From Enterococcus sp. DIV0212c (GTDB lineage: Bacteria; Bacillota; Bacilli; Lactobacillales; Enterococcaceae): 64,000 bases of DNA. Positions 39,777 to 63,292 of this stretch are shown here, piece after piece. Position 1 is the first letter of the stretch, and each line of letters opens with the position of its first letter. The position numbers and the translations under genes were made by a program. A model generated the notes under the pieces. It had not been told where the DNA came from. It saw only the letters and a program-made list of their open reading frames with translations, and searched no databases. Location: the NCBI RefSeq assembly GCF_017377505.1, contig NZ_JAFREN010000016.1, forward strand, positions 186,001-250,000, read 5' to 3'.

Positions 39777-39805
39777 TTTTCTTGTTTTATTAACAAACGA
39801 GAAGT
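39777..39805. repeat. Left inverted recombination-like site of cassette A
   Basis: 29-bp site, TTTTCTTGTT arm, 9-bp centre TTATTAACA, then AACGAGAAGT. Reverse complement of 41302-41330 at 25 of 29 positions, with 8 of the 9 central bases identical. Arms form an imperfect dyad as in tyrosine-recombinase core sites. Confidence 0.8.
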
Positions 39806-40011: not shown

Positions 40012-41103
40012 CTAACTGATTAAACTGATAGCTTTTCTTTTTTCTGTCATAAAAGAGCTGACATAAATATCTAGTGTCATTTTAGTTGAATGATGGCCTA
40101 GCAGAGCACTGATTGTTGCTATGTTTACACCTTTTTCTAAGCAGCGAGTAGCAAAACTGTGTCTAAGTTGATGAAAACGAATAGTTGTAAAATGAATACT
40201 TTGACATATTTTTTTTAGCCATACTGAAATAAGACGCGGCTCTGCTGGTTTATTTCCTCCTAATACAAACTCTCCATCACTTGTTTGTTTTTGTTTAGTC
40301 AAAAGCTTGCTGAGATTTTTAGAAAGTGGGATAGTTCGTTTAGAAGTAATACTTTTAGGTGGACCTTCAATTATTTGTGTTTTTTTGTTTATATCATTAC
40401 TTGTTTGGATTCTTTGAATTGTACGCTGAACTGTAAGAGTATTTATTGAAAAATCAATATCTTTCCACTTTAATCCAGCAATTTCTCCAATTCTCATACC
40501 AGTTTCTAAAGCTAATATAATAGCAAGACCTTTAGGATGTTTCGCCGCTTTTTCTTTTAGTTTCTTTTGTTCCTGTGATGTGATTGCATTTATATTATTC
40601 GGTGCTTTCTTAGGTAAAACAACGTATTTACAAGGATTATCTGAGATTAGTTCTCTTTTTACAGCAGCAGTGCAACAAGACACCAAAACTTGATAGACAA
40701 TCCGAACAGAATTAGGTGACAAATGCCCCTCTAATTGTTTGATCCACTCATTTATCTTAGCCGTTGTAATCGATTGTAAAGGAATATCTCCTAAAGAGGG
40801 CAGGATGTGCTTTATCATTTTATTTGTATAACTAGCATAGGTGCTAGGTTTCAATTGTCTTTGTACTTCCTTTAACCAACAAGTTGTCCAATCATTTAGT
40901 GTCCCTTGATAGATAATTGTTTTAAAGGCATAGTTATGTGCATGTAACGCTTTCATCCTTAATAGCCTTTCTTTTAGATCCGTATACGTTTTATTATAGA
41001 CATAACCATATATAACACTTCCATCCCTTTTCCTCCCTTTTATGTATCTTCCTTCCCAGCGACCATCTTTTCGTTTATAAATATTTTCACCTTTTCTTAC
41101 CAT
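40012..41103 (-). CDS. Tyrosine recombinase (Tn916-type integrase family), cassette A
   Basis: A 363-residue protein. The N-terminal AP2-like arm-binding domain (about residues 1-50, NIYKRKDGRWEGRYIKGRK) is followed by a SAM-like core-binding domain (about 65-170) and a catalytic domain. The catalytic residues are all present: Arg204 (TGMRIGEIAGLKW), probably Lys265, His311 and Arg314 (HQLRHSF), His337 (LLGHHS) and Tyr347. It should therefore be active in strand exchange. No excisionase or mobile-element backbone is nearby. It lies inside an inverted-site pair and has its own terminator. The likely job is to flip its own segment, though integration activity cannot be excluded. Paralog at 60708-61790. 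Confidence 0.92.
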   Translation of the reverse strand: MVRKGENIYKRKDGRWEGRYIKGRKRDGSVIYGYVYNKTYTDLKERLLRMKALHAHNYAFKTIIYQGTLNDWTTCWLKEVQRQLKPSTYASYTNKMIKHILPSLGDIPLQSITTAKINEWIKQLEGHLSPNSVRIVYQVLVSCCTAAVKRELISDNPCKYVVLPKKAPNNINAITSQEQKKLKEKAAKHPKGLAIILALETGMRIGEIAGLKWKDIDFSINTLTVQRTIQRIQTSNDINKKTQIIEGPPKSITSKRTIPLSKNLSKLLTKQKQTSDGEFVLGGNKPAEPRLISVWLKKICQSIHFTTIRFHQLRHSFATRCLEKGVNIATISALLGHHSTKMTLDIYVSSFMTEKRKAISLIS

Positions 41104-41301: not shown

Positions 41302-41330
41302 TTTTCTCGTTTGTTAATATAACGAGAAAA
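41302..41330. repeat. Right inverted recombination-like site of cassette A
   Basis: TTTTCTCGTT arm, centre TGTTAATAT, AACGAGAAAA arm; perfect 10-bp dyad arms. Partner of 39777-39805. Confidence 0.8.
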
Positions 41331-42059: not shown

Positions 42060-42229
42060 CGTGAAATTGACAAAAATACATGACATATTTTTTCTATTTC
42101 ACAAAAAAACAACTTTAAAATTAAATTTTCCTTAGAAAAACAGCTGTTTATCGATATAAAATAGCTGTTTTTTGGTGCGGATCCACCAGTATTTTCATGT
42201 GCACTTTAGGTCCGCACCAAATTACTATT
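42060..42229 (-). promoter_or_regulatory. CRISPR leader and hairpins between cas2 and the array
   Basis: A 170-bp region. Next to cas2 is a hairpin with TTGGTGCGGA / TCCGCACCAA arms (42172-42221). Then comes a U-flanked stem AAAAACAGCT / AGCTGTTTTT (42136-42173) that should end the cas transcript. The A/T-rich rest, 42060-42135, is the likely leader. Its promoter boxes are not clear. Confidence 0.65.
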
Positions 42230-42520: not shown

Positions 42521-42529
42521 ACTTTTCAC

Positions 42530-44208: not shown

Positions 44209-44209
44209 C

Positions 44210-45073
44210 TTATAGCCCTTCGATAACGGTTAACTCGATTCCTTCAAGTGGTTCAACTGTTACTTTATAATCATCAAATGATTTTGCACGATCGACTTCG
44301 GGAATTTTTTCAATTTTTACAGAACGATGGACTTTGGCTGATGATGCTTTTCCCATTTTACTTGGGTGTTCCCACCAGTAAATTTTTTCTACAGCCATGC
44401 TGCCGTCTGGGCGAGCGGATGAGGCATCGTTTTCGAAAAGAGTTGTTAGAGCTTCTTTGATTTTTTCTGCGTCATCAGTGGTAAAGCCAGTTTTTTCAGC
44501 AAGTTGGACATTGATACTTCCGTTAAAGACATAAACGCCGAAGTCTACGAAATGTTTGGTTCCCATGGTGTCTGAGCTTTTTCCGCCGCCCTCACTGACT
44601 GAATTGACACTTTTCGTGATTTGCATTGTATTAATGTCGATTGGTTCAAGGCTGACTGCAGTTTGGATGGAAACTGGGCCACGAACACCTACAGAAAGCT
44701 CCAATCCCTTAAAAGCAAATACCTGTCCAAAACTACGCGTATCGATCCATGTTTCACAAGCTACCTCACTAAAGCGGTTAACATCAGCTTTCTTTTTTTC
44801 CGCAGCAATTTTATTTAATTCTTCAATTGAATCCACACGATCCTTCAAGCTCTTAAGCCCATCATCTGCTCGATCATCAGACTGGACAAAAATTCTTTCG
44901 CCTAAGTCTTGAAGACGATTACGAATTTTACGTTTGATGGCTACATCCGAAATTTCACCATACCCTTCAAAATTTTGACGTGGGCGATTGCCATTTAATG
45001 GATCACCATTTGGATTTGCGTTTGTTACTGATGTGATTACCTTAAAGTCGATTTTGTGTGTTAAAACTGTCAT
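44210..45073 (-). CDS. cas7c: Cascade backbone protein Cas7 (Csd2, type I-C)
   Basis: A 287-residue Csd2 family protein: DFKVITSVTNANPNGDPLNGNRPR at the start, WIDTRSFGQVFAFKG and RGPVSIQTAVSLEPI in the middle, typical of the RAMP backbone subunit that coats the crRNA in multiple copies. It lies 3 bp after cas8c, and cas4 follows immediately. Confidence 0.96.
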   Translation of the reverse strand: MTVLTHKIDFKVITSVTNANPNGDPLNGNRPRQNFEGYGEISDVAIKRKIRNRLQDLGERIFVQSDDRADDGLKSLKDRVDSIEELNKIAAEKKKADVNRFSEVACETWIDTRSFGQVFAFKGLELSVGVRGPVSIQTAVSLEPIDINTMQITKSVNSVSEGGGKSSDTMGTKHFVDFGVYVFNGSINVQLAEKTGFTTDDAEKIKEALTTLFENDASSARPDGSMAVEKIYWWEHPSKMGKASSAKVHRSVKIEKIPEVDRAKSFDDYKVTVEPLEGIELTVIEGL

Positions 45074-45076
45074 GAT

Positions 45077-46996: not shown

Positions 46997-47727
46997 TATT
47001 CAACCTCCTGTTCCAAAGTTTCAAATAACTGATCGACAGTTTCGATGTCTGTTGGTTCAAATACTTTTGCCTGCATCGTTCTAAGTGGTCGAACTAAGGT
47101 ACATTCTTCAGGTCGTGGAAATTTAATGATGCCTTTTTCCATAATAGGATGCCATAAACGAACAGCTAGTTCGTCTTTCCCTGTTTCATCTGGATAGGAT
47201 AATCCATGAACCATTGTGCCAAAATGCAACTCTCCTTCATACTCATCATAGTCACCTTTTGCTTTGCCAAACTCAACTGGTTCCACATATCCCTGACATT
47301 CTCTTGTTCCTAAAAATACATCTCTTCTTCCGCCAGCCTTGATCGAACGTTTTAAAATTTGATAATGTTTATCTTCATTCCAATCGCCTTTTAAATCTGG
47401 ACGATGTTGATTAAACTCAAAATGAACTTTCACTTCATAAACAGGCTTCTTCAAATACGTATAATATGCTAAATCACTAGCACTGCTGTCGTTGTATTTC
47501 ATTGGGCGCATTCCTTTAGACTCCATTTGAATTGAGTTCATCACGCGAACTTCATCAATGTAGTACACAATCGATGGCTTCCAATAAATGCTTTCCGTGA
47601 TTCCTTTCAGTGCTTGATAGGTGGGAATCTGGTAGGTCATTTTTTCACCACCCATTTTTGTCAAAGGGTCAGTAAAAAGAGCATACTCACCTTCTACTCT
47701 AAAAGAAATTTGATTTTTATATTTCAC
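46996..47727 (-). CDS. cas5c: Pre-crRNA endonuclease Cas5c (Cas5d, type I-C)
   Basis: A 243-residue Cas5d family RAMP protein: [29 protein letters not shown] at the start, [15 protein letters not shown], and [23 protein letters not shown] in the Gly-rich part. In type I-C this protein replaces Cas6 and cuts the repeat RNA, leaving an 11-nt 5' handle. No cas6 is present here, as expected. ATG behind AAGGAGGAGTTAATAG. It is separated from cas3 by a 140-bp palindromic element. Confidence 0.95.
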
Positions 47728-47750
47728 TATTAACTCCTCCTTAATTTAAA

Positions 47751-47860
47751 AGCGTAGCGGGTTCGTCCAACTCTGACAGGAAAATAGGAACTTATGACTG
47801 AGGTGCTTTTTGCCTCATTCATAATCTATCTTTTTCCCGAGGAGTTAGCCCGCGAAGCTA
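47751..47860. repeat. Long imperfect palindromic element between cas3 and cas5c
   Basis: About 110 bp that fold back along nearly their full length: AGCGTAGCGGG...  pairs with CCCGCGAAGCT at the other end, and CTTATGACTGAGG pairs with CCTCATTCATAA around a TGCTTTTTG loop. It is more GC-rich than its surroundings and resembles a small dispersed palindromic repeat. No second copy was seen in this window. Confidence 0.65.
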
Positions 47861-47867
47861 GATAACA

Positions 47868-50610: not shown

Positions 50611-53600
50611 TTAAGGTGTTTGTTCGACTTGCCATAAAATAGTGGCTCGATAACCACCTGGCTGTAAGACTTCGCCTGAAGGAACTTCTAAGAACATACC
50701 AGATTCATTTTTATCCCACTCATCACTTACATTATATTGCCCTTTAGTTTCATGTGTTCTCTCGGCTATTGATTGCGTGATATTTTTTGATAAGATAACC
50801 GTTTCTGTGTCACTTATTTTATATCGGATCGCAGATGGTAGAATTTTACTTGGATCTTCTTGGCTCGTTAATGGTTTTTTTAACGTTGCCGTTAAATCCC
50901 AAGCCCCCCCATTTTTACGATTATCCCAAACAATCAATGGTTTGTCATACTTAGCTTTTTCTACTTTGATAAATGGTAATCCTAAGCTTTTGCGTCCGAA
51001 ATTCAAGAAATTAGGAGAAGATTGGACAAATAACATGCCTTTAAATTGATACTGAACGGTACTTTCTTCACCTGTAACAGGAACCTTGGTTTCATTCTCC
51101 GGTTTTTTAACCAATTGATAGTTTTTATCAAGAATCATTTGAAGGATTTGTTGGACTTCTTTTTCTTTGGTTAAATCAATGGTTGTGCCTATTGGTTTAT
51201 CGAAGGTAACCTTCTCATGTAAGGAAGTTCCTGTTTCATCTACAAATTCAATATTTACTTTTTGATTACTTTGGATATCAATAGTGATTGTTTTCTTGAT
51301 TGTTTCTGTGTCTTTTTCTGCTTTTAGCGTCGCCTTGTAACTCCCTTTTTCTGGATTTGGTGTTAAGGTTGTTGATTCTACAGAAAGGTTGACATCCTTA
51401 CTCGAACCCGTTGCCATATCCCAAGCAATAGCCTCTGATTTTTCAAGGATCAGTTTGTTGACTTCAATTTGCGTTAAATTTTGAAAAAGCTCAGGTCCGC
51501 TATTAAAGTTAGTTGCAAATAGATAAAGACCTTTGATTGGCGGTGTTTCATCTATCACTTGTACTGGAATTTTAATCAATGTCGTCTTATCTGGTTCATC
51601 AACATCCGTCATCCGCACCATTACACTGGTTAAGCCTACAGTTGATGTATCCGGCATTTCTCCTTCATATTCGTATGATGCTGCATGCTCTGGTAAGATA
51701 ACTGGGTCTTGAATAATTTCAGACGCTTTTTTAGTAAAAGCAGTTCCTTTTTTGATGATTTGAGGAATCGGCTTTGCCCCAAGATTGTATACTGCAATGC
51801 TTACCACATATTGATCTGAGGGTAGCCCTTTCATAGGTCCTTCTGCTTCATTGATAGCTAAAAGTGAGGTATCATAGTTAAGAATTGTACCTGATTTTTC
51901 ATTAAGTTGTTCTGGTAACTCATCCCTAGAGATAGTTAATGAACTATCAAATTCTTTTTTGCTATTCGAGGTAAACGGCGTTTCGATTTCCTTGCCATTG
52001 GGATAGGTTACGTAAATAGTTCCATAATCATTCTCTGTTGGGATTTTACTCAGCTTATAGCTAGTCTTAAAATCTTTAGCATAGTCTGAATAAACATTGA
52101 AGACTTCTGGTTTAGCTTTTATTTGCATGTATGGAAGCTCATCTCCTGCAAAAATTTCGTAACCTGTCTTTAATGCTTCATCAGGCTCTATATTTTTCCA
52201 AGGTGCACCTAATTGATATGCCGAATCGACACCAGATACAATAATTTGGTCAGCCTCATGATTTTTATTTTCTAAACCATCTGCCGTAAAAGCACTGCGA
52301 AAATAATTAGTACCTCTAGAAACACCTGTATCAGCCCCATTTGAAGAATAGTATGGTCCAACTATATATTTAGTGTAATCTGAAAACCAATTTCCTTGAG
52401 CATCCTTTAACTTGATTGTAAATCTCTTATCTGGACTAGGCTGCATGTAAAAACCACTGTTATTTCCTAGTGAATAGATAGGCACGTAATCGTTATAGTA
52501 ATCCGTATCTACACTTTCCAACATTGAAAATTTCTTCGTTGTATTAGAAAGGTTATACATATCTAATCGGATAGTGAAATTTAAGTTTCGACTCAAAGAT
52601 AAATTGTATACATAAAGGATCTGGTTAGTATCATCTACTAAAATTTGCTTTAACATGTTTTCTTTTCTTAAGAACAATCTTGAAGGAATAGCGGATACCA
52701 CGCCGTCCCAACCAATTCCAGATTCTCTACGCCATTCATTAATATTACTCGTGTACAAAGCTTTACTATTCACTCCTGGAATATCACTTACTTTCCCCAA
52801 ACCATCCCTATACACATATCCTCTACCAGCACTATCGTTAACAATAAAACCTATTTCATTGTCTTGATAATATGAAGATACTCCTCTTCTTGGAAAACCT
52901 ATTTTAGAACCATTTATTGGATTAGTGATGACCCCATTAGTAGAATTTAAGGGAATATTTTCCCATCCTTCTATGCCACTGTCTCCAAATACCTTTTCTG
53001 GAAGAACCATAACATTAATTTTATAAGTCAATAACAGTTCCTCAAAAGTAACCGTTAGTGTCGCCTCTTTGCTTCCTCTACTAGAATTAGTAATATTCGA
53101 CTCGGTAACACGCACGTCTAAATCTTTTCCCGAAGTTAATTCCCATGCTTTTGGTGATATTCTTTGAGTTACCAATTGATTGATTTGTTCAGCCGTTTTC
53201 CCTTTGATATCTTCGCTATAAAGAATTGGAGAGCTAAAACTCATGCCTACTTTTGACTCTAGAGTTACTGTAGTTACTGTTTGTTTATCTGCAGTTACTG
53301 TAATAGGTATTGGAATGACCGTTGAAACATCTTGATGAGTCTTATCAGTCATTTTAATATAGCCCCAATGAAACCCCGGCTGACTCGAATTAAACGTATT
53401 TATTGGTTCAGTGGGATCTCCTGCTTTATTTTTTACCCATTCATACGTAGACCTGTCAGAAGCAGAGTTATTCACAGACTGATATCTCGAAAAAATAAAA
53501 CGCGCATCTAGTCCCATTATGAATTCTTTATACTGATCTACAGTAAAGTAATAAGGTTGCTTCAAGTCAGCGCCAAATAAAATAACGGTACGATTTGTAG

Positions 53601-54939
53601 TAGCTGTTTGCCCATTTAATTCTACTTTGATTGTTCCCGTATATGAGCCTACTGGCGAATCATTGACTACCGTCGTATCATTGAAGGTTGCCGCTACTGA
53701 TGCACCAGTCTGTGTATCCCAAGCACTTAAATGAGTTCTTGATTGAATCATCGTGATCAGTTCTTTTTTACTTTTCCCTTTGATTTCATCGGGATATAAT
53801 ACTATTTTTTCATTTGACTTGACCATGATTTTTTGATTCAATAGATCCGTTGTCTCTTTACTAGTAATATTGATTGGTACTTTAATAATCGTTGTTATAT
53901 TTTTATAGCGTACATCTGTCATTTTTACATAAGCCCAATGAAAACCAACTGTTCCAGTATCAAATCTTTCCAGTACGTCACCATTTTCATTAACAATTTG
54001 GAATCTTGCACTAGACGCATTCATGTCAGTCATAGTTTGGTATCTAAAAAATGGAAAGGTTGGATTGGTTATATTATTATTATTATGATAAAGTGATAAA
54101 AAAGTCTGCCGGTCGGCACCAAACACGATCACCTCTTTTTGGATGGATTCTTTTTGCTGTTCTGTACCAAAACCTATTGTAACTTCAATTTCCGCCGTAT
54201 ATCGCCCTACAGAAACCGATGAAATAGTTGTCTTAATCACATTTACTGGAACTTCAGTGCCATCTTCAACATTCCAAGAATGAATATTTGCTTTTGTCTT
54301 TACTACTTGTTTGAGTTGCTCTTCTGTTTTATCCGCTGTGTCTCCTGGATATAAAACTATTTTATCAATCGTTTGATCTATTTGAAGAGCGACTTGTTTT
54401 TGTAATAAGAAAGTTGTTTCTGCATCATAAATCGTTACTGGTATAGGAACACGAATACTAGTATGGCTATAATTTTCAGTAACTTCTACATAAATTTTTT
54501 GGAACCCTACTTGTTCACTGCTGGGACTAATTGGTGAACCGTCTGCATTTACATATTTATATTGAACGCCAGATTCCGGATGTGGTATGACTCTTTCCGA
54601 AAAAAGTACCTTAAGTCCCGATTCATAATCCAAGTTTGGAAAGTTTGCATTTTGCTTCAAAATCAATGCCTTAGGTGTCACTTTTAATCCAGATTCATTC
54701 TCAACTGGATCTAGTGCTTTTAATATCGACCTTTTGTCAGGTTTGTTCTTTGTTCGTTTTGATGGATTATCAATCATTTTGGTAGCTGATTTTTCCACAT
54801 CATTTTTGGAATTCGCCAAGATAGGAACTGTCGTCTTGAACGAAAGAATGAATAAAACGGTGCCTAATAATAGAACTCCTATAAAATATTTTAGCCATTT
54901 ATTCTTAAAACAATTGCTTTTCTTTTTTCTATTAAACAT
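50611..54939 (-). CDS. Giant WxL-type surface protein of cassette B
   Basis: A 1442-residue paralog of the 1436-residue protein at 29969-34279, with the same order: a basic cytoplasmic head and membrane segment (about residues 15-36), three units of about 180 residues with FHW(A/G)Y(V/I)K strands, a central domain with DSAGRGYVYRDG and LYVYNLSLSRNLNF, a MucBP-like stretch (QKVNIEFVDETG), and a WxL end WDLTATLKKPL ... ILWQVEQTP. The C-terminal 400 residues are much more alike than the repeat region. This suggests that the exposed part diversifies while the anchor is kept. Last gene of the cassette B operon; ligand unknown. Confidence 0.85.
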   Translation of the reverse strand: MFNRKKKSNCFKNKWLKYFIGVLLLGTVLFILSFKTTVPILANSKNDVEKSATKMIDNPSKRTKNKPDKRSILKALDPVENESGLKVTPKALILKQNANFPNLDYESGLKVLFSERVIPHPESGVQYKYVNADGSPISPSSEQVGFQKIYVEVTENYSHTSIRVPIPVTIYDAETTFLLQKQVALQIDQTIDKIVLYPGDTADKTEEQLKQVVKTKANIHSWNVEDGTEVPVNVIKTTISSVSVGRYTAEIEVTIGFGTEQQKESIQKEVIVFGADRQTFLSLYHNNNNITNPTFPFFRYQTMTDMNASSARFQIVNENGDVLERFDTGTVGFHWAYVKMTDVRYKNITTIIKVPINITSKETTDLLNQKIMVKSNEKIVLYPDEIKGKSKKELITMIQSRTHLSAWDTQTGASVAATFNDTTVVNDSPVGSYTGTIKVELNGQTATTNRTVILFGADLKQPYYFTVDQYKEFIMGLDARFIFSRYQSVNNSASDRSTYEWVKNKAGDPTEPINTFNSSQPGFHWGYIKMTDKTHQDVSTVIPIPITVTADKQTVTTVTLESKVGMSFSSPILYSEDIKGKTAEQINQLVTQRISPKAWELTSGKDLDVRVTESNITNSSRGSKEATLTVTFEELLLTYKINVMVLPEKVFGDSGIEGWENIPLNSTNGVITNPINGSKIGFPRRGVSSYYQDNEIGFIVNDSAGRGYVYRDGLGKVSDIPGVNSKALYTSNINEWRRESGIGWDGVVSAIPSRLFLRKENMLKQILVDDTNQILYVYNLSLSRNLNFTIRLDMYNLSNTTKKFSMLESVDTDYYNDYVPIYSLGNNSGFYMQPSPDKRFTIKLKDAQGNWFSDYTKYIVGPYYSSNGADTGVSRGTNYFRSAFTADGLENKNHEADQIIVSGVDSAYQLGAPWKNIEPDEALKTGYEIFAGDELPYMQIKAKPEVFNVYSDYAKDFKTSYKLSKIPTENDYGTIYVTYPNGKEIETPFTSNSKKEFDSSLTISRDELPEQLNEKSGTILNYDTSLLAINEAEGPMKGLPSDQYVVSIAVYNLGAKPIPQIIKKGTAFTKKASEIIQDPVILPEHAASYEYEGEMPDTSTVGLTSVMVRMTDVDEPDKTTLIKIPVQVIDETPPIKGLYLFATNFNSGPELFQNLTQIEVNKLILEKSEAIAWDMATGSSKDVNLSVESTTLTPNPEKGSYKATLKAEKDTETIKKTITIDIQSNQKVNIEFVDETGTSLHEKVTFDKPIGTTIDLTKEKEVQQILQMILDKNYQLVKKPENETKVPVTGEESTVQYQFKGMLFVQSSPNFLNFGRKSLGLPFIKVEKAKYDKPLIVWDNRKNGGAWDLTATLKKPLTSQEDPSKILPSAIRYKISDTETVILSKNITQSIAERTHETKGQYNVSDEWDKNESGMFLEVPSGEVLQPGGYRATILWQVEQTP

Positions 54940-55172
54940 TTACTGTCCCTCTCTTACCTTATTTATTGACCGATAAAAAAGTAAATTCATTTAAATTTAT
55001 GGTGTTTTATTTATCATAGAATCGGTGTTACTAATAAAATGACTGCTTAATCTTCAGAATGGTTTACATATGATTTTGGCAAAACATTTTAAGTTTTATC
55101 AACATCAGAGAATATCACAATACACGATGTGAAAAAATTAGACTCTCCAACAATTAGACTAAACGACTTTTG

Positions 55173-56252
55173 TCAGAATTTTTTTTTACTTTTCTTCTTT
55201 TTAGGCTCCATTCTTATTTTCCACTTCTTTTTCCTTACTCGTTGATAACCTAAAGCAGACAAAAGACTAACAAAAACACCCATCAATAAAACGAACCATA
55301 ACCAAAGAGAGGTACTAGAACTATTTCCTTTTGCTTCTTCTTTTATTCGATTTGCTTGAGGCTTTGTTACCTTAAAATCCTCTATCCAAGACCACTTTTG
55401 CCCATGGTCAGCTGTGACAGTAATCTGCGCTGTATACTTTCCAGCTGACATTTTTTTGTCAGCTAGGTCAATAGGAGCATCAATCATGGTATTTGGTGCC
55501 ATCCTCATCGACTTTTGTTGATGCTCAAACAAGATTTTTTGTTTGTTGCTTTTTCTTACTTGTACAGAAATCGTCATTCCTTCTACATATACAGGGTGAA
55601 TATTGGATAGATTTACAAATAAATGACTCTTAGCATCTTTGAATCCTATGTATATTTTATTTAATTCTAGCTTTGGTTTTATCTCACTCGTATCGCCTAC
55701 TCGTAGTAACATTCCGACTAAATAGGCAAATTCATTTACAACAAGATCTTTGCTTTTCTTATCAGAGGACTTACTATCATCAAGTGGCTGTAGTTGGATG
55801 CCGCCAGCTATTAGTCCGTTCGTCGCTGTGTTGGGTACAGAAATTGTAAACTCGACTTCTGTACTACTTTTTGCCGGAATAATTAGTTTCTTTGGTCCTT
55901 TTACAATATTGATGAAATCTAGCATCAAGGAATCATCATTATTCAGGTTATTAGGACCATATTCCACTTTTCCAATACTATTCGTTTTGGCACCGTTTAA
56001 TCGGATTTGAGTAGTTATTTTTTGGGGCAATGAATTATATAGTTTGATTACTACTTTTTGTTCTTTCCCTGGCTGCATGCTCAGATCAAAATAACCTAAG
56101 TTTTTATTTTTTTGATTGTTAGGGTACATAATTTCATAAGACAATCCGCTTATCGGATTTGGGGAATTCTGCTCAGCAACACTTCTTATAGGATCAAAAA
56201 AAAGAGCAATACAACATAAAAGTAACAATAAACAGGCACGATTTTTGTTCAT
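55173..56252 (-). CDS. DUF916/DUF3324 surface protein of cassette B (second)
   Basis: 359 residues from the ATG at 56252 (AGAAAGGCGAATT upstream), chosen because the signal peptide NKNRACLLLLLCCIALFFD then starts at the N-terminus. The open frame extends to 56291 without a better start. DUF916 shows NKNLGYFDLSMQPGKEQKVVIKLYN and NGLIAGGIQLQP, DUF3324 shows NIHPVYVEGMTISVQVRK and KWSWIEDFKV. A membrane helix (about 312-332) precedes a very basic tail (RVRKKKWKIRMEPKKKKSKK). It corresponds to 34506-35558, with a longer basic tail. Confidence 0.9.
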   Translation of the reverse strand: MNKNRACLLLLLCCIALFFDPIRSVAEQNSPNPISGLSYEIMYPNNQKNKNLGYFDLSMQPGKEQKVVIKLYNSLPQKITTQIRLNGAKTNSIGKVEYGPNNLNNDDSLMLDFINIVKGPKKLIIPAKSSTEVEFTISVPNTATNGLIAGGIQLQPLDDSKSSDKKSKDLVVNEFAYLVGMLLRVGDTSEIKPKLELNKIYIGFKDAKSHLFVNLSNIHPVYVEGMTISVQVRKSNKQKILFEHQQKSMRMAPNTMIDAPIDLADKKMSAGKYTAQITVTADHGQKWSWIEDFKVTKPQANRIKEEAKGNSSSTSLWLWFVLLMGVFVSLLSALGYQRVRKKKWKIRMEPKKKKSKKKF

Positions 56253-56312
56253 TTTTTTAATTCGCCTTTCTAATAAAAATATACGATTCAATCAAACAGG
56301 GTTTCACTTTAT

Positions 56313-56342
56313 TTCTGTGAACAATTTATAACAATAACTGTC
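56313..56342. repeat. 30-nt inverted repeat, downstream arm around WxL gene (cassette B)
   Basis: Starts TTCTGTGAACAATTTATAAC. Reverse complement of 57171-57200 at 28 of 30 positions, bracketing the WxL gene as in cassette A. Confidence 0.85.
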
Positions 56343-56389
56343 AAACAATCTACTTACTAATTTTTCTTAACATACGTTGATTTTATTTC

Positions 56390-57130
56390 TTAGTATGTGT
56401 TATCCAAACTCCAAGTTACAGAACCTTTAAATGCTTTACCAGCAGCGCCTTTTCCTGTTGTAACAACTAATTTAATGTCTTTTAATTTAGTTGAGAAACC
56501 GCCTTTAGCAGTATCCGCTTTTGTTTTAGCAAGGACATTCGTTGCTGTTGTATTCCCAGCCTCTAACGTTACGCTTTTACCAGTAATAATATTGTCGGCA
56601 TCAGTAAGAGCACTTAAATTTCCTTCAATTGGGTTTGGCGTATAATCATTTGTATCTGGATCTACTTCACCGATATCATAAGCTTGAGGGTCTTCTAAAG
56701 TAAATGTTAATTTTGACGGTAACTCAGTTTCGGCCTCATCTTTAGAAACTAACGGAGACATTGCAGCAGTGACTTTCCAAGCAGAAGTTGTCCCATCCGC
56801 TTTTGTTTTTCCATCGTCTTCTCCACCTGTACCAGGATCACTTACTTGTCTGTCATCATTAACAACCAAATATTGTTCATCCTTTATAGTATTACTGAAT
56901 GTCGCAATATTTGCTGTTGCTTTTTGACGACCAAAGTCAAATTTAGATGGTGTCCAAACTAATGCTAAGTTATCTTTAAATGGTCCTTCACCTGGTTTGT
57001 TAGGACCATCAGTGTCAAAACGGATACCTAAATCTGTTTGTTCTTTGCCGACCTCTTCTGCATTTGCAGGTTTTGCAAAAATCAGCAATGCTGATGAAGC
57101 AAGTAATGTTGTAAATAGTATTTTTTTCAA
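56390..57130 (-). CDS. WxL-domain surface protein of cassette B
   Basis: A 246-residue secreted protein with TTG start at 57130 behind GAAGGGTGAT. Signal peptide to residue 24 (KPANAEE), the same TDLGIRFDTDGPNKPGEGPF segment as cassette A, WxL motifs AWKVTAAM and the end SVTWSLDNTY. The signal region is identical to cassette A, the middle (a DPGTGGEDDGKTKADGT insertion) is not. It binds peptidoglycan through the WxL domain. Flanked by the conserved 30-nt inverted repeats. Confidence 0.92.
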   Translation of the reverse strand: MKKILFTTLLASSALLIFAKPANAEEVGKEQTDLGIRFDTDGPNKPGEGPFKDNLALVWTPSKFDFGRQKATANIATFSNTIKDEQYLVVNDDRQVSDPGTGGEDDGKTKADGTTSAWKVTAAMSPLVSKDEAETELPSKLTFTLEDPQAYDIGEVDPDTNDYTPNPIEGNLSALTDADNIITGKSVTLEAGNTTATNVLAKTKADTAKGGFSTKLKDIKLVVTTGKGAAGKAFKGSVTWSLDNTY

Positions 57131-57170
57131 AATTTAATCACCCTTCTTATTTAGTGTAAATAAAACTGAT

Positions 57171-57200
57171 GACAGTTACTGTTATAAATCGTTCACAGAA
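57171..57200. repeat. 30-nt inverted repeat, upstream arm around WxL gene (cassette B)
   Basis: Partner of 56313-56342. Both mismatches read as G-U pairs in the mRNA sense. Confidence 0.85.
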
Positions 57201-57218
57201 ATGTATATTTATCTAGAT

Positions 57219-57443
57219 CTATCCAATTAGTTTGATCTGGTCTTTCAATAAGGTGAATAAATAAATAATCAGAGAAATACTTGTGATAGATACTGCTAAT
57301 AAAGTAAAATTAAAAAATAAATCGAGCTTTTTTTTCCTTAATTTTCTTGCTAAAAAAACATCTTTAGAAAGGGTTATTAAAAAAAATAGTAATGACACTG
57401 AGGCTACGCCTCCCAATAGATAAATCCACAAATAATCGTTCAT
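57219..57443 (-). CDS. Two-TM miniprotein of cassette B, unknown function
   Basis: A 74-residue paralog of 36506-36730, with two membrane helices (about residues 5-25 and 43-66) and the same basic loop (ARKLRKKKLDLFF). It ends KDQIKLIG like its counterpart. Ten bp after the LPxLG gene. The preserved length and charge pattern argue for a real, selected protein, perhaps a small membrane subunit of the WxL complex. Confidence 0.8.
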   Translation of the reverse strand: MNDYLWIYLLGGVASVSLLFFLITLSKDVFLARKLRKKKLDLFFNFTLLAVSITSISLIIYLFTLLKDQIKLIG

Positions 57444-57452
57444 ATTACACTC

Positions 57453-57770
57453 CTATACATTTATGCTATATACCTTACGTAAGCTTATGACTCCTAAAAA
57501 TATGATCAAACAAGCAACACCAAGTAATAACAAGATGAAAGATGTCAGCATTTGACCTAACATAGGCAGCGCACCATTCGTTGTTGGATAACCAGTCACA
57601 TCCTTTTCATCTACGGGTGGTTTTGGGGATTCTGGTCCAATAAATTGCTCAAATGAAATCCCAGCTTCTGTGTTTTCTTGTTCAGCTAAAGCATAAGAAG
57701 TTCGGCTAAACAATGTTAAACCTATAGATATCATGACAACCAACGACCAAATAATGGTATGCTTTTTCAT
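57453..57770 (-). CDS. Small surface membrane protein with LPxLG motif (cassette B)
   Basis: A 105-residue paralog of 36740-37057: signal peptide (to YALAEQ), TEAGISFEQFIGPESPKPP exposed part, then LPMLGQ, membrane helix and the same SLRKVYSI tail. The helix and tail are almost identical in the two copies, while the middle varies. The sorting-like motif again has Leu where sortase A substrates have Thr. Starts 2 bp after the first DUF916 gene. Confidence 0.82.
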   Translation of the reverse strand: MKKHTIIWSLVVMISIGLTLFSRTSYALAEQENTEAGISFEQFIGPESPKPPVDEKDVTGYPTTNGALPMLGQMLTSFILLLLGVACLIIFLGVISLRKVYSINV

Positions 57771-57772
57771 CT

Positions 57773-58876
57773 TTATTCACCATCTTTTCTGCTGATTTTT
57801 TTCCGTTTTTGCTTTGGGTTTCCTTGTTTTTTTCGTTTAGCTATTTTGACCTTTCTCCATGATTTCTCCCATTTCTTTCTTCTAACCAAAAGTACTAACA
57901 TGATCAAAATAGTCCCTAGACTCAAGAAAATTGTGGCTCCTTTAAGCCAAGTAGGCGTAATAATTTTAAACGCACTTTCTTCATTCATTTTTTTTGCTTG
58001 TTGATTTGTGATCGTGAATTCTTTACTTAGCTGCCACTCTTGGTACTCATTGGCAATATCTAAATTCAAGGTATAGGTTCCAGAAGGCAGTGCATCAATC
58101 CCCCAGTCAATCTCAAAATCAAAGACACTATTTGGCGCCATACTATAGTTGTCCACTGTTTTTCTTTTGACTACTTTATCTGATCCTTTTTTGGTCATCG
58201 TTGCCACAATGTTCAAATTTTCTAATACTTTTGCTTCTGGATTTTGCAAATTGGCTAAAACCATTTTTTTCCCGCGTTTGATTGATGCTTTGACTGCGTT
58301 CAAATTTAAGGTTTGAGCATTGTTGAATTCATCTCCTGATTCTGATGTAATTAACCCTACTCTATAAGAGAATTCTGTTGATACACCGTTTTTGTTATTT
58401 TTCCCTTGATCCAGCGCAAAAACTAAAGCACCCATTTTTACACCGTTGTATCGTTCTTTAGGAGGTGTTAATTGGATTTTCACAGTTTTTTCTTCATAAT
58501 TGCCAATCGTAATCTCTGGCGTTTGAACTTTAATCATGGAAGTTATCGGTTCTTTTAAAGTTGAATCATAGTGTGTTTTATCATTACTATATTCAATTGT
58601 GCCTCCATCACCTGTAATCGCATTTGTGCCGTATATCTTCAATTGGACATTCTCTTTTTTAGTACTTTTGATTCTTACTTCCAATGTCTGGGTTTCTCCT
58701 GGTGTTGTTTTCACATAAAAATAACTCTTACTAGGATCTATTTGTGTACTCGATTGCACAAGAGTTACTGTATAACCCAAATTATCGTCATCACCTGCAG
58801 CACTCACTTGATCTGCAAAGAAAAAAATGGAAAGAGCACAAATGAGAATTGTATATATAGTACTAATCTTTTTCAT
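57773..58876 (-). CDS. DUF916/DUF3324 surface protein of cassette B (first)
   Basis: A 367-residue protein, same length as its counterpart 37060-38163 and very similar throughout. Signal peptide to about residue 26 (VSAAGD). DUF916 with SYFYVKTTPGETQTLEVRIKS, DUF3324 with NLQNPEAKVLENLNIVATMTKKG and FDFEIDWG. A membrane helix near residue 310 precedes a Lys/Arg-rich tail. Third gene of the operon after the regulator and the four-TM protein. Confidence 0.9.
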   Translation of the reverse strand: MKKISTIYTILICALSIFFFADQVSAAGDDDNLGYTVTLVQSSTQIDPSKSYFYVKTTPGETQTLEVRIKSTKKENVQLKIYGTNAITGDGGTIEYSNDKTHYDSTLKEPITSMIKVQTPEITIGNYEEKTVKIQLTPPKERYNGVKMGALVFALDQGKNNKNGVSTEFSYRVGLITSESGDEFNNAQTLNLNAVKASIKRGKKMVLANLQNPEAKVLENLNIVATMTKKGSDKVVKRKTVDNYSMAPNSVFDFEIDWGIDALPSGTYTLNLDIANEYQEWQLSKEFTITNQQAKKMNEESAFKIITPTWLKGATIFLSLGTILIMLVLLVRRKKWEKSWRKVKIAKRKKQGNPKQKRKKISRKDGE

Positions 58877-58910
58877 GAAAAAAGTTTCTCCTAACTACTA
58901 ATATTTATTC

Positions 58911-59576
58911 TTATGTTATTGCTTGAACAATAACTTCCACATACCATTCGTTCTCTTCACCCTCAGTTATACTATCCATTAAGGTGTATCCTTTTTTCTC
59001 AAAATACTCTAACCAATGAGTTATAAAATCTTTGGCGTATTGTTCAGCTTCTTCTTTTGTTTGAAAAGAACCTTGTTTTTTGACTACTTCATTCTCTTCG
59101 TAGAATTCATCTTTTTCCTCATACAAGTATTTTGTGATCACGTATATGATAAACACGATCGTTAACGAAGCTATGAATAGCAGTAAGAATAACGGCCAAA
59201 CGATCGTCTTTAACATTGCTACTCCATTTATTCCTAAAATAACTAGAAAAACAATCAACGAATAGGTCATTTTTTTTGAATCAGTCAATTCTTTTTTATT
59301 TTTGATGTAGAACATCAAAATAAGGAATAGATTTAATGTCATCAACAAGAAAGTAATAAATAAATATTTCAAAATATCTTCCAAGTAAAAATTCACCATA
59401 AACAATAACTGGACAATAAAATTGGCTTTTTTATCTACGTAAAAAAATGCTTCTTCATAAAATTTTGAAAATAAAATAAAATTGACTACCCATCCAATCA
59501 AAAGCATCAGTTCATAGAAATAATACATTCTATAATGTTGATAATAATTATTTTTGTCTTTCACACACTTAGCCAT
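58911..59576 (-). CDS. Four-TM protein of cassette B, unknown function
   Basis: About 221 residues from the ATG at 59576, which has AGGTGA 8 bp before it; a GTG at 59588 is the alternative. Same plan as 38198-38863: four membrane helices, an acidic linker (EEKDEFYEENEVVKKQG) and a small C-terminal domain (SFQTKEEAEQYAKDFITHW ... NEWYVEVIVQ). The pairing with the adjacent regulator is kept in both cassettes. No known family recognised. Confidence 0.78.
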   Translation of the reverse strand: MAKCVKDKNNYYQHYRMYYFYELMLLIGWVVNFILFSKFYEEAFFYVDKKANFIVQLLFMVNFYLEDILKYLFITFLLMTLNLFLILMFYIKNKKELTDSKKMTYSLIVFLVILGINGVAMLKTIVWPLFLLLFIASLTIVFIIYVITKYLYEEKDEFYEENEVVKKQGSFQTKEEAEQYAKDFITHWLEYFEKKGYTLMDSITEGEENEWYVEVIVQAIT

Positions 59577-59721
59577 CCATTTCTTCACCTAATTACTTCG
59601 GATTCTTTTGTACTGTCTTCACACACTAGCGAGTATTGCTCGTACGATCCTAAAATTAAGCGTTTTTTGGTCTCTTTTATTCACTTTCCTCAAAATTATT
59701 TTATGGAGAAATATTATTATT

Positions 59722-60432
59722 TCAATTAACTTTGGAACTGGTCAGTACATAACCTTTAGTTCTAATAATTTCAATTTCAAAGTAGGTTTGTTTTTTTAAT
59801 TTACTCCTAATATGAAAAACAAAATTAGCTACTTTGTACTTAGCTGTTGATTCACTTGCAGACTCACCATATATCACTTTATTAATTTCGTTATAGGTAA
59901 CAACATTTTCCAGATTTTCGTACAATAGCTGAATAAGTTTGAATTCTTTTCTTGTTAGTGCTATGCTTTTGTCATGAACTACTAGGCTTAATTTTGATGC
60001 ATCTAAAAAGTGACTGTCAGAAACTTTTCTTATCTTGCTTTCACTTAATAACTGTTTTTTATAGTTCATGGCATTTTTTATAACGATTCCTAAATTTTCA
60101 ATACCTTGATTACTCTCTATAATTTCAATCACTGAGTTTTTACTTAGGTGTGGGTACAGTTTTATCATTTCTGATTCCTTATCTGCGCTAAGAATCCAGA
60201 TAAACAAGGAATAATTTTCTTTCAAATCAATTAACCACTGAAATGCACTGACATAATCAGAAGATTTCTCTAAGCTAATGACCAAACCATCTAATAATCC
60301 TATCTGCTCTTTTTCTATAATTTCAATTAGTGAATACTCTTGTTCCTTGAGTGCTTTTTCGATTACTGAACTTATGTTAGGGTTCTTTTCTGATTCATTT
60401 CCGATATGTAATATGCCAATTGTACCTGCCAT
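59722..60432 (-). CDS. Atypical winged-helix (OmpR-type) regulator of cassette B
   Basis: A 236-residue protein; ATG behind AAGTAGGAGGCGTTTGT. The C-terminal winged helix is LTRKEFKLIQLLYENLENVVTYNEINKVIYG ... VANFVFHIRSKL ... IRTKGYVL. The receiver-sized N-terminus lacks the acidic pair (TIGILHIGNE) and the phospho-Asp position (GLVISLEK), as in cassette A. The gene starts 36 bp from the left inverted site 60469-60499, and the promoter at 60502-60530 inside the segment reads straight into it. Confidence 0.85.
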   Translation of the reverse strand: MAGTIGILHIGNESEKNPNISSVIEKALKEQEYSLIEIIEKEQIGLLDGLVISLEKSSDYVSAFQWLIDLKENYSLFIWILSADKESEMIKLYPHLSKNSVIEIIESNQGIENLGIVIKNAMNYKKQLLSESKIRKVSDSHFLDASKLSLVVHDKSIALTRKEFKLIQLLYENLENVVTYNEINKVIYGESASESTAKYKVANFVFHIRSKLKKQTYFEIEIIRTKGYVLTSSKVN

Positions 60433-60468
60433 ACAAACGCCTCCTACTTAAAATTTGTTAGCTATTTA

Positions 60469-60499
60469 TTTTTCTTGTTATGCTAACAAACAAGAAAAA
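60469..60499. repeat. Left inverted recombination-like site of cassette B
   Basis: 31-bp site: arms TTTTTCTTGTT and AACAAGAAAAA around the asymmetric centre ATGCTAACA. Exact reverse complement of 62000-62030 (31 of 31). Confidence 0.92.
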
Positions 60500-60501
60500 T
60501 C

Positions 60502-60530
60502 ATTATATAACTATCAATATCAACGCTCAA
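60502..60530 (-). promoter_or_regulatory. Outward promoter at left end of segment B
   Basis: Minus-strand TTGAGC (60530-60525), 17-bp spacer, TATAAT (60507-60502). Transcription would start within the left inverted site and run into the regulator gene. Confidence 0.75.
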
Positions 60531-60540
60531 AACATCTTGT

Positions 60541-60559
60541 GACGGAAAAGTTGACGGCG
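60541..60559 (+). repeat. Paired GACGG(C) direct repeats, left end of segment B
   Basis: GACGGA at 60541 and GACGGCG at 60553 (12-bp period), the same spacing as at the left end of segment A. Confidence 0.55.
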
Positions 60560-60652
60560 TAAGTTTTCGCAAGAGTCAAATACCTAGTAAAATATCTTGC
60601 TAACCTTAATCTAACTAAATACACATTTATAAAAAAAGTACGTTAAATGAAA

Positions 60653-60703
60653 AATAAAAAAAGGCTTTCTACCTTCCAAACTTGATAATTTTTGAAAAGT
60701 AGA
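60653..60703 (-). terminator. Terminator of recombinase gene B
   Basis: Imperfect stem (60668-60680 with 60691-60703) whose two mismatches are G-U pairs in the leftward transcript, followed on that strand by AGCCTTTTTTTATTTTT. Confidence 0.7.
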
Positions 60704-60707
60704 GAGA

Positions 60708-61790
60708 CTAACTGATTAAATTGATGGCTTTTCTTTTTTCTGACATAAAAGAATTTACATAAACATCTAGTGTCATTTTAGTTGAATGGTGACCCAGCAA
60801 AGCACTAATCGTCGCGATATTCACCCCTTTTTCTAGACAACGCGTGGCAAAACTGTGCCTAAGTTGATGAAAACGAATGTTTGCAAAATGAAAACTTTGA
60901 CAGATTTTCTTTAACCAATATGAAATAAGCCGAGGCTCTGCAGGCTTATTCCCACCTATAACGAAGGCTCCGATGCTCTTATGTTTTTTTTCAATTAAAA
61001 GCTTGCTCAAATTTTTTGAAAGCGGTATAGTTCTTTTAGATGTGGAGCTTTTAGGGGTACCTTCAATAATTTTTGTTTTTCCACTCCTGGTTTGAATTCG
61101 TTGAATTGTTCGTTGAACGATTAAAATGTTCGTTGAAAAATCAATATCTGCCCATTTCAACCCAGCAATTTCCCCAATTCTCATTCCAGTTTCTAGTGCT
61201 AATATAATAGCTAATCCTTTAGGATGGACAGCAGCTTGTTCCTTTAATTTTTTTTGGTCTTCTGAGGTAATTGCGTTTATGTTGTTAGGTGTTTTTTTAG
61301 GTAGAGTAATATGTTTGCAGGGATTTTCTGGAATCAGCCCTTTTCTTACTGCGGCAGTGCAACAAGACACCAGAACTTGATAGACAATTCGAACAGAATT
61401 TGGAGATAGTTCGCTTTCTATTTTTTTTATCCATTCGTTTAAATCGTTTGTCGTAATTGCATGTAAAGGAATGTCTCCCAAAAAAGGGAGAATATGTTTC
61501 GTCATTTTATTTGTATAACTAGCATGTGTGCTTGGTTTTAGCTGGCCTTTGATGTCGGTGAACCAATAAGAAACCCACTCACTTAGCGTTCCGTGGTAGA
61601 GGATCGTTTTAAACGTGTAATTATGTGAGTATAATGCTTTCATCGTTAACAGTTTTTCTTTAAGGTCCAGATACTTTTTATTGTATATATAGCCGTACAC
61701 GGCACTACCATCACTCTTTCTTCCTCTTATATATCTCCCCTCCCAGCGACCATCTTTACGTTTATAAATATTTTCTCCTTTTCTTACCAT
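60708..61790 (-). CDS. Tyrosine recombinase (Tn916-type integrase family), cassette B
   Basis: A 360-residue paralog of 40012-41103, with the same AP2-like arm-binding N-terminus (ENIYKRKDGRWEGRYIRGRK), core-binding domain and catalytic set: Arg in TGMRIGEIAGLKW, Lys in SKRTIPLSK, HQLRHSF, LLGHHS and the nucleophile Tyr in LDVYVNSF. All catalytic residues are present. It lies inside the perfect 31-bp inverted pair and most probably flips this segment. The three-residue length difference from copy A falls before the catalytic Lys (TRSGKTKIIEG against TSNDINKKTQIIEG). Confidence 0.92.
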   Translation of the reverse strand: MVRKGENIYKRKDGRWEGRYIRGRKSDGSAVYGYIYNKKYLDLKEKLLTMKALYSHNYTFKTILYHGTLSEWVSYWFTDIKGQLKPSTHASYTNKMTKHILPFLGDIPLHAITTNDLNEWIKKIESELSPNSVRIVYQVLVSCCTAAVRKGLIPENPCKHITLPKKTPNNINAITSEDQKKLKEQAAVHPKGLAIILALETGMRIGEIAGLKWADIDFSTNILIVQRTIQRIQTRSGKTKIIEGTPKSSTSKRTIPLSKNLSKLLIEKKHKSIGAFVIGGNKPAEPRLISYWLKKICQSFHFANIRFHQLRHSFATRCLEKGVNIATISALLGHHSTKMTLDVYVNSFMSEKRKAINLIS

Positions 61791-61817
61791 AAGTCATTAC
61801 TCCCTTCTTTAAATTAT

Positions 61818-61836
61818 GACGGCGATTTGACGGCGA
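61818..61836 (+). repeat. Paired GACGGCG direct repeats, right end of segment B
   Basis: GACGGCG at 61818 and 61829 (11-bp period), in the recombinase 5' leader, as in segment A. Confidence 0.6.
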
Positions 61837-61921
61837 ACACATTTCATAGCATAATAACAACGATTAATAACATAAATAAATAGATCTATATGATTCATTT
61901 AATAAAACATTTAAAACAGTG

Positions 61922-61950
61922 TTGACAAAAACAATAAAACAGTATACTAT
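61922..61950 (+). promoter_or_regulatory. Outward promoter at right end of segment B
   Basis: TTGACA (61922-61927), 17-bp spacer, TACTAT (61945-61950); an overlapping TATACT is at 15-bp spacing. It shares the GTGTTGACAAA context with the segment A promoter and points rightward out of the segment. Confidence 0.65.
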
Positions 61951-61999
61951 TTTTAGTGAAATGACTTAAAACAATTATTTTAATTATATTTATTTTTCA

Positions 62000-62030
62000 T
62001 TTTTCTTGTTTGTTAGCATAACAAGAAAAA
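62000..62030. repeat. Right inverted recombination-like site of cassette B
   Basis: Exact inverted copy of 60469-60499, with centre TGTTAGCAT. Confidence 0.92.
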
Positions 62031-62144
62031 AATAAAAAAATAATGTATATTATCCAATTAATAACCAAATACATATGAATAAAGATAAATAAACCGTTTC
62101 CAATAACTTTTACTAATCTTATGAGTAAATTGAGAACAAACCTA

Positions 62145-62192
62145 AAAAAGATAGACCAAATACTCACCACGAGTGTTTGGTCTATCTTTTTT
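62145..62192. terminator. Bidirectional terminator right of cassette B
   Basis: Perfect 16-bp stem AAAAAGATAGACCAAA / TTTGGTCTATCTTTTT with a 16-nt loop. It ends the leftward DUF3224/PfpI transcript and would stop rightward transcription from the segment B promoter. Confidence 0.85.
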
Positions 62193-62259
62193 ACTAATTA
62201 CTTAATTGTATACATTTTTCAATTGCATTATCCCTGTATTTTGGACAATTTACTTTATA

Positions 62260-62682
62260 TCAGGCTCTTCCATTCCCAATCACATAATCAATCTCAATAA
62301 CTAACGTGGCATCACCTAAAAAATACTTACCCGTACCTTGAATCCCAGAAAGTTCTTCCGTTCCTGTTTTCTCTTTTATGACTAATTCATTTTGCGGAAG
62401 ACCTTGTTCAAAGGTACCTCGTTCTTCTAAAACAAATGTGCCTTTACATCCTTGCAACGATCCTTCAAAAAACAGATACCCTAAATAGGTGGCTTTTGAT
62501 AAATGAGGATTTTCATTATTATACTCTGAGTAATGCAGCAGATAATCAGCTTTGAAATTGCCTTCGATCTCATGTTCTGCTTTGTACCAGACAGAAGCTT
62601 TCGCCACTGGATGTTCCGTAGGGAAATTCGCTAGTAACTCTTCATCCTATGACACAAGCTCCAGGCTACTTTTAACCAACAT
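62260..62682 (-). pseudogene. DUF3224-like protein gene interrupted by an in-frame stop
   Basis: From ATG at 62682 the frame reads MLVKSSLELVS, then TAG (62649-62647), then DEELLANFPTEHPVAKASVWYK and on for a total of about 140 codons. The stop falls where DUF3224-type proteins commonly have Trp before Asp-Glu, and TGG to TAG is a single change. The part after the stop has the family's FEGSLQGCKGTFVLEERGTFE and GTGKYFLGD strands. A GTG at 62607 could start a 115-residue product, but it lacks a ribosome site and would lose the first strand. The ATG overlaps the PfpI gene stop, the usual arrangement of a coupled intact gene. Function of the family is unclear. Confidence 0.6.
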
Positions 62683-63292
62683 TCCCATCACCAGCACTCC
62701 TTAACTCTTGTTTTAGCGCTTCATAATAACCTAACTTGTAAAAGTTATACCACTGTTCTATTTCTTTCTCAGGCATTGCTTGAAGTGCCAGCAAAATTTC
62801 TTTTGCAAACTCTAAATGCCCAGTGCCATTGGCTGTAATCAAGTTATCTACTCTTATTGCTTGGACTTCTACATACTGGTTTGCACCCGTATAGTTCGCG
62901 CCAGCATAATCTTGTAAGTCTTGTAATTGGTTGCTCGTATGTTTATGATCATTTAGTAAACCAATACTTCCCAGATAAACAGTCGCATCACAAATCGCAG
63001 CGATCACAGCACCTTGTTGTTCCGCTTTTTCTACTAAAGCATCGACTTCTTTTGCTTTATCCGATCGCCAAGACTTTCCGCCAATTAAAACCAAGGCACC
63101 AAACTCTTTTTGGCACGCTTCGGCAAGTGTATAATCCGGCAATGTAGAAAATCCGCCCATTGATTGAATGGCTTGTTTTTCATTTGAAACTGTTTTAACC
63201 GTGAACCCTTCTTCCTGATTCAGTACAGCCGCAATTGAGGCCGCTTCCCAATCTGCATATTCTTCTAACAACACAAAAAGCACTTCTGTCAT
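62672..63292 (-). CDS. DJ-1/PfpI family protein
   Basis: A 206-residue class I glutamine-amidotransferase-like protein. ALVLIGGKSWRS carries the oxyanion region. The nucleophile elbow IAAICDATVYLG carries the conserved Cys of DJ-1/PfpI proteins, and LLNDHKHTSN follows as in the YdeA/YajL-like branch. Such proteins act as glyoxalase/deglycase, chaperone or protease; the exact activity cannot be read from sequence. Cytosolic. Followed by the broken DUF3224 gene in an overlapping operon. Confidence 0.85.
   Translation of the reverse strand: MTEVLFVLLEEYADWEAASIAAVLNQEEGFTVKTVSNEKQAIQSMGGFSTLPDYTLAEACQKEFGALVLIGGKSWRSDKAKEVDALVEKAEQQGAVIAAICDATVYLGSIGLLNDHKHTSNQLQDLQDYAGANYTGANQYVEVQAIRVDNLITANGTGHLEFAKEILLALQAMPEKEIEQWYNFYKLGYYEALKQELRSAGDGNVG

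Follow-up and report, generated by a model that had tools for sequence, protein, structure and literature searches.

The fimS switch of the E. coli type 1 fimbriae is a promoter segment of 314 bp that lies before a surface-structure operon and is flipped by a tyrosine integrase (PMC9993118). Other phase-variable loci lie behind inverted repeats, such as the C. difficile switches (RecV) and the Bacteroides Mpi invertons, and Hin is an example of an invertase whose gene lies inside the invertible segment (PMC5903667); Hin is a serine recombinase (PMC3798978). In Streptococcus pneumoniae, the tyrosine recombinase PsrA is encoded within the hsdS inverton that it rearranges (PMC12324116). For gut bacteria, invertons close to surface genes have been described, in a report whose main text mentions neither Enterococcus nor WxL (PMC11892184). 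One proposed role of WxL gene clusters is to connect the surfaces of bacterium and host, and binding of cellulose and xylan has been proposed for some WxL proteins (PMC10599100, PMC9026416). Our literature search, which covered little of the subscription literature, returned no paper that describes WxL operons with invertible promoters, or the recombinase family treated here.

Here we analyze a locus of Enterococcus sp. DIV0212c, cassette B, which a first-pass annotation of the sequence had compared with FimB/FimE and Mpi. The likeness to fimS stands, as a tyrosine integrase and a promoter segment before a surface-structure operon are found here too, but the comparison overlooks the position of the enzyme within the segment, as with Hin, and next to arm-type repeats. 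FimB and FimE are encoded outside fimS, whereas the recombinase gene of B (60708-61790) lies between the core sites, in a segment of ~1.56 kb, and the structural model of its product has an N-terminal domain that resembles an arm-binding one. The Hin/H segment of Salmonella flagellar phase variation shares with B the invertase gene inside the segment; in contrast to the serine recombinase Hin, the enzyme of B is a tyrosine integrase with arm-type repeats, and each genome has 6 to 13 members of its family, most of which precede a regulator gene. PsrA, like the enzyme of B, is a Gram-positive tyrosine recombinase inside its own inverton, but the hsdS system shuffles coding sequences and B a promoter. 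Recombinases inside their own invertible segment are already known (Hin, PsrA). What we did not find described is a ~1.5-kb module that combines a lambda-type integrase with core sites, arm-type sites and a promoter reading outward, present many times per genome with a spacer of its own at each place. We read cassette B, with a probability of about 0.77, as a self-contained invertible promoter that is mostly OFF as assembled and would be ON after inversion.

Organization of the locus

The window is the whole stretch of 64,000 nucleotides that was analyzed, corresponding to positions 186001-250000 of contig C8 in a genome of 3.54 Mb and 41 contigs. It contains only two matches to the recombinase family, in cassettes A and B (Table 1). 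The first-pass annotation had given B a 31/31 inverted pair of arms; the pair is real and actually one base longer, with complementarity at 32 of 32 positions (60469-60500 and 61999-62030), so that B is bounded by inverted repeats as an inverton is. Its score of 32 compares with a maximum of 14 and a mean of 10.7 in base-shuffled flanks of the same kind (60 draws). Each arm reads TTTTTCTTGTT-ATGCTAACA-AACAAGAAAAA, a perfect 11-9-11 dyad whose 9-base centre is asymmetric, in agreement with the earlier description, and the distance of 36 bp between the end of the left arm and the start of the regulator gene was also borne out.

Table 1. Coordinates of the features of cassettes A and B, in window positions unless a locus or contig is named.
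Feature	Position	Strand	Remarks
Operon genes after the regulator	50611..59588	-	seven genes, described in the text
First gene of the operon, OmpR-type winged-helix regulator (Trans_reg_C)	59722..60432	-	
Left core recombination site of B	60469..60499	.	11-9-11 dyad; adjoins regulator; recombinase 3' side
Promoter-like site TTGAGC-N17-TATAAT	60502..60530	-	regulator-facing; 10/12 to consensus; only in B among 12 A/B-group cassettes
Putative arm-type repeat pair near left core	60540..60558	-	TGACGGA / TGACGGC on +
Predicted terminator-like hairpin and T run	60655..60705	-	3' of recombinase gene; z -2.9
Tyrosine recombinase (integrase) of B	60708..61790	-	360 aa; intact ORF
Putative arm-type repeat pair, recombinase start to right core	61817..61834	-	TGACGGC x2 on +
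Conserved outward promoter TTGACA-N17-TACTAT (predicted)	61922..61950	+	recombinase 5' end; 10/12 to consensus
Right core recombination site of B	62000..62030	.	inverted copy of left site; recombinase 5' side
Left core site of A	39777..39803	.	
Recombinase of A	40012..41103	-	79% identical to that of B; ahead of second WxL operon
Right core site of A	41304..41330	.	
Lone paralogue of the same genome	L040:7983-9104; C23:20666-21751		16 counterparts, e.g. L139, L147, L159, L173

The eight-gene surface operon that had been proposed downstream was found, as eight co-directional ORFs at 50611-60432 that include WxL and WxLIP (WxL-interacting) proteins. After the regulator, these encode a 225-aa protein without Pfam match, two WxLIP proteins, a 105-aa protein (with an LPXTG-family match below the cutoff), a 74-aa protein, a WxL protein and a 1442-aa protein whose MucBP match is borderline. 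Between the two cassettes lie a repeat array that looks CRISPR-like by eye (41740-42060), which the outward promoter of A faces as assembled, and a block of what we take to be cas-like genes (42230-50303). Another WxL-type cluster is located at 6849-10839, where WxLIP and the large surface protein have weaker tblastn matches. No plasmid record among those searched matched the region 59600-62700, the window's own or very near records possibly lying outside that search.

The intact tyrosine recombinase claimed between the repeats was confirmed, with a Pfam match to Phage_integrase (E 2.3e-24); none of its four Pfam matches is to a serine-recombinase family. Tyrosine recombinases of the lambda-integrase type use the catalytic residues R, K, H, R and H and a nucleophilic Y. 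In B, these presumably include R204, H308, R311, H334 and Y344, all invariant in seven aligned sequences (B included), as are the candidate lysines K238 and K247. An AlphaFold2 model built with 7 sequences (mean pLDDT 75.6, pTM 0.49, with low confidence over approximately the last 45 residues) begins with three strands (8-10, 16-24 and 30-37) and a helix (40-56), followed by the core-binding and catalytic parts, and thus predicts a three-domain fold with an N-terminal arm-binding-like domain. The nearest solved structures, both by sequence and by fold, are the integrases of Tn1549 and lambda; these enzymes integrate and excise, whereas the inverted cores found here give inversion. We take the Int of Tn916 to be a further relative. 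Lambda and Tn916 both have core sites accompanied by arm-type sites.

Core sites, spacers and arm-type repeats across the genus

The genome that contains B encodes nine family recombinases (identity of at least 42%), eight of them with a core pair and the ninth (L040) without. At a threshold of E <= 1e-60, we counted 193 family recombinases in 22 genomes of the genus (this one included). We analyzed 154 loci, consisting of the best 152 of the 193 matches, one locus from another genus (L198, in G022) and a duplicate (L061, on the same contig as L241). A flanking core pair, requiring a score of at least 16 (base-shuffled maximum 14, 60 draws), was detected at 126 of the 154 loci; the search for pairs started from recombinase genes, so that all 126 necessarily enclose one.

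Spacers were analyzed in 121 well-centred pairs, 5 more having fallen under the dyad cut-off. The central 7 bp were identical within the pair in 120 of the 121, while the outer half-site positions of a pair matched less well, to as little as 0.85 inside the dyad; no palindromic centre occurred among the 121. Strand exchange by tyrosine recombinases requires an identical overlap region, and the within-pair match of the central 7 bp is what this region demands. Between loci, identity at the central 7 positions was 25-47%, and half-sites were similar among different cassettes. No central 7-mer was common to two cassettes in any of 295 same-genome pairs, against 3.9 expected from label shuffling (0.0165 of the shuffles were as low), although this is no proof that spacers are private, because many identical spacers join orthologues of different genomes, which is impossible within one genome. 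Going by sequence, the spacer that each cassette has of its own should prevent recombination between cassettes. RecV and Mpi are single master enzymes that serve several scattered sites, whereas here each core pair that we examined, around recombinase genes, has an enzyme and a spacer of its own; this and the 0 of 295 shared 7-mers speak against a master-enzyme regulon.

Inside the cores we found pairs of GCCGTCA-like repeats, which may be arm-type sites for the N-terminal domain predicted in the recombinase. Of 124 loci (duplicates L061 and L253 excluded), 104 have such a pair at the recombinase 5' end, 70 have one at its 3' end and 68 have both, leaving 20 loci without a detected pair at the 5' end and 54 at the 3' end. 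Such pairs were essentially absent from shuffled sequences (~0) and from the opposite orientation (0). The 28 loci that lack a core pair have a repeat pair at the 5' end in 5 cases and at the 3' end in 5.

Cassettes are mostly found ahead of a regulator gene, and some of those without a regulator are ahead of a surface gene; WxL genes adjoining cassettes were confirmed by search in part of the loci. The core sites of five loci (L057, L124, L125, L126 and L137) closely resemble each other, and these loci have no regulator match in their vicinity. The next gene at L057 encodes a protein with a KxYKxGKxW signal, GA modules and ChW repeats.

A single-protein search of named-species genomes, with a reach limited to close relatives, returned 61 loci. 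Enterococcus is represented among them by E. quebecensis, E. caccae, E. termitis and a fragment from Enterococcus sp. 665A, and two Lachnospiraceae contigs also have core pairs. We searched for a pair within 900 bases at L061, L065, L066, L067, L070, L073 and L075, and found one at L061 only. On the Lachnospiraceae contigs (L062:288-2915 and L063:3360-5908; uncultured Lachnospiraceae, Roseburia), perfect inverted pairs, of 27/27 and 29/29 respectively, surround recombinases that share 36-38% identity with the one of B, and the next co-directional gene has a TnpB/Cas12f1-like TNB domain and is followed by another large gene. Possibly, the TnpB-like protein is under an invertible promoter there.

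One conserved promoter and the assembled state

Both promoter-like sites claimed for the ends of B are present, at equal distance from consensus (Table 1). The region 59500-62300 holds 19 such sites, against 13.1 +/- 3.5 in shuffles, so that promoter matches alone prove little, and we therefore looked at conservation. All 12 A/B-group cassettes, B included, carry an outward TTGACA-N17-TAnnAT on the recombinase 5' side, and the other (3') end has no promoter conserved across these 12. Scoring 82 loci gave the same polarity: a score of at least 11 was reached by 26 at the 5' end and by none at the 3' end, and a score of at least 10 by 41 and 4. Looking at further relative groups, a conserved -35, N17 and -10 were present at the 5' end in three of four, with TTGACT as the -35 in G2 and TAGACT in G3 and G4; in G1, one of the five relative groups looked at, the consensus -35 was not seen at this end among the rows listed.

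As assembled, the right promoter points away from the operon, and inversion makes it face the operon. On the other side, the recombinase gene is followed by the predicted hairpin and T run, which would hinder read-through into the regulator. The counterpart in cassette A is more pronounced (z -9.6); a consensus terminator scan with a loop limit of 8 missed the hairpin of B, whose predicted loop is 10. The gap between core and regulator is 34 bp in A, against a median of 129 over 101 loci. In the common orientation of A and B nothing conserved drives the regulator, and the assembled state of B is thus probably OFF, judging from position and conservation. Inversion would place the conserved promoter upstream of the regulator, that is, ON. 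The left site of B could still work and B may not be fully OFF at present, since this site is as near to consensus as the right one and is rarer in shuffles (expectation 0.04, against 0.22 for the right site).

The first-pass annotation had taken the two sites to mean that each end has a functional promoter, the two differing in strength or control, and that flipping changes the level or condition of expression. We consider this unlikely. Sigma-70-like 10/12 sites do exist at both ends of B, and shuffles rarely match the left one, but none of the other 11 A/B-group cassettes has this left site, and its -10 ends at 60502, beside the core at 60469-60499, so that a transcript would start inside the core site. 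A second, left-end promoter was rejected as a general feature of the family, as just 4 of the 82 loci reach 10/12 there. With a single conserved promoter, and a hairpin and T run after the recombinase, ON/OFF switching fits better than a change of level.

Both orientations occur in the family

Inversion is real in this family: relatives show both orientations, with breakpoints in the cores. L183 (genome G003, of another species) is reversed with respect to L042, a sister cassette at C8:283144 in the genome of B; the flanks on either side are collinear, with 70-81% identity. Similarly, L175 (G017) is reversed with respect to L220 and L221. A further case comes from a single assembly. Contig C1 of genome G005 (3.84 Mb) has redundant ends of 40 kb, in which positions 1-40127 match 3802241-3842360 up to within one base of the contig end, with flanks that are 99.9% identical. 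Within them, 18637-20196 matches 3822436-3820877 in reverse, at 99.87%, which is a core-bounded segment of 1560 bp. The breakpoints fall in the 28-bp arms, where the variants are T...G.G / G...A.A in one copy and G...G.G / T...A.A in the other; the arm halves are re-paired as a crossover predicts. The simplest reading is an untrimmed circular chromosome from a culture with both orientations; a true 40-kb duplication that ends at both contig ends is less likely. Loci L260-L265, at these contig ends, thus preserve both orientations of a switch in one assembly, and untrimmed assembly ends may be a cheap source of evidence for phase variation.

Taking the regulator as reference, the recombinase points toward it in 105 loci and is reversed in 3, which suggests that flipping may be rare. 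In this count, 4 of the 105 have no scored core pair, L253 is reversed and its twin L252 is of the common type, and the duplicate L061, loci without a detected regulator, and L053 are excluded; at L053 (8070-8658) the downstream regulator matches in two pieces and is probably broken there. No reversed case was seen in a first look at cassettes with a detected regulator; two were found at 105 loci and the third, with its twin in the same assembly, at 154. The view that the cassettes always have one orientation, and so are not invertible, was rejected when these cases appeared with more loci.

For B, the comparison of orientation with related genomes that the first-pass annotation had suggested goes against flipping: B and its 11 closest relatives, the A/B group, are all in one orientation, and no inverted copy of any of them was seen. 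Its claim of a self-encoded invertible segment before a WxL operon stands through relatives found in both orientations; B itself probably flips as they do. The strong bias could also mean a frozen switch, in which B flipped once and is now fixed and the family flips only on evolutionary time scales. The single orientation of 105 of 108 loci, and of all 12 A/B-group cassettes, is what such a switch would give. We nevertheless consider it improbable, as one assembly contains both orientations of a cassette, the cores of B are perfect and its recombinase is intact, and decay would erode the within-pair spacer identity that is kept in all pairs but one.

Lone paralogues and other readings of the repeats

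Seventeen of the 28 loci without a core pair are a lone paralogue next to an AcpB/EbpR/MafR-type regulator, one per genome in 17 of the 22 genomes; no such regulator neighbours any of the 126 loci with a core pair. Among the other 11 pairless loci, L054, L120, L121 and L217 have a regulator downstream and a weaker pair or none. The lone paralogue might be a relic that was domesticated, or else an enzyme that acts in trans. Its recurrence beside the same regulator gene, together with the similarity of half-sites of different cassettes, would suit a model in which another recombinase, such as this one, inverts the cassettes in trans, with the resident gene acting mainly as a passenger or as a source of bias. 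This seems to us quite improbable, given that the arm-type repeats adjoin the resident recombinase gene and that spacers vary between cassettes.

That the repeats are binding sites, terminators or the ends of an integrative element, rather than recombination sites, is very improbable and already contradicted for the family by observed inversions that break at them: the arms are each able to fold into a weak hairpin (-8.5 kcal/mol) and the enzyme resembles transposon and phage integrases, but an integrated element has direct attachment sites and those of B are inverted, and with relatives showing inversion we rejected the integrative-element reading.

Discussion

Our results favour reading cassette B as a phase switch of a known kind, with the layout of Hin and the chemistry of tyrosine integrases; what sets it apart is its genus-wide multiplication with locus-specific sites. 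In the mechanism that we propose, the recombinase of B, a lambda-type tyrosine integrase, would bind both inverted cores and also the paired TGACGGC arm-type repeats inside them, and would flip the 1.56-kb segment that holds its own gene. In the assembled orientation, where the recombinase gene runs toward the regulator and into the terminator-like hairpin and the conserved promoter faces away, the regulator and the WxL operon would be mostly silent; this OFF orientation appears to predominate in assembled genomes. After inversion, the promoter would face the regulator and turn the operon on, as its position and conservation suggest, while the central spacer of each cassette should block recombination with the others.

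We lean, by a narrow margin over even odds, toward extending this to a switchboard of the genus, in which most of the 6-13 family recombinases per genome would sit in autonomous, strongly OFF-biased invertible promoter modules of ~1.5 kb (lambda-type integrase, core and arm sites, promoter). The private 7-bp spacer would serve as an address against cross-over, so that single cells express different combinations of surface operons, and the module would also work elsewhere in Firmicutes, including before TnpB-like genes in Lachnospiraceae.

Compact and self-contained, the module offers a clean system for studying how arm-site asymmetry biases inversion by a lambda-type integrase toward a single orientation, and it also suits the question of how related recombinases in one cell avoid cross-reaction. 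If the cassettes are independent and mostly OFF, clonal cultures would express few of these operons and single cells would differ in their surface. It is probable that this bacterium turns parts of its surface on and off individually.
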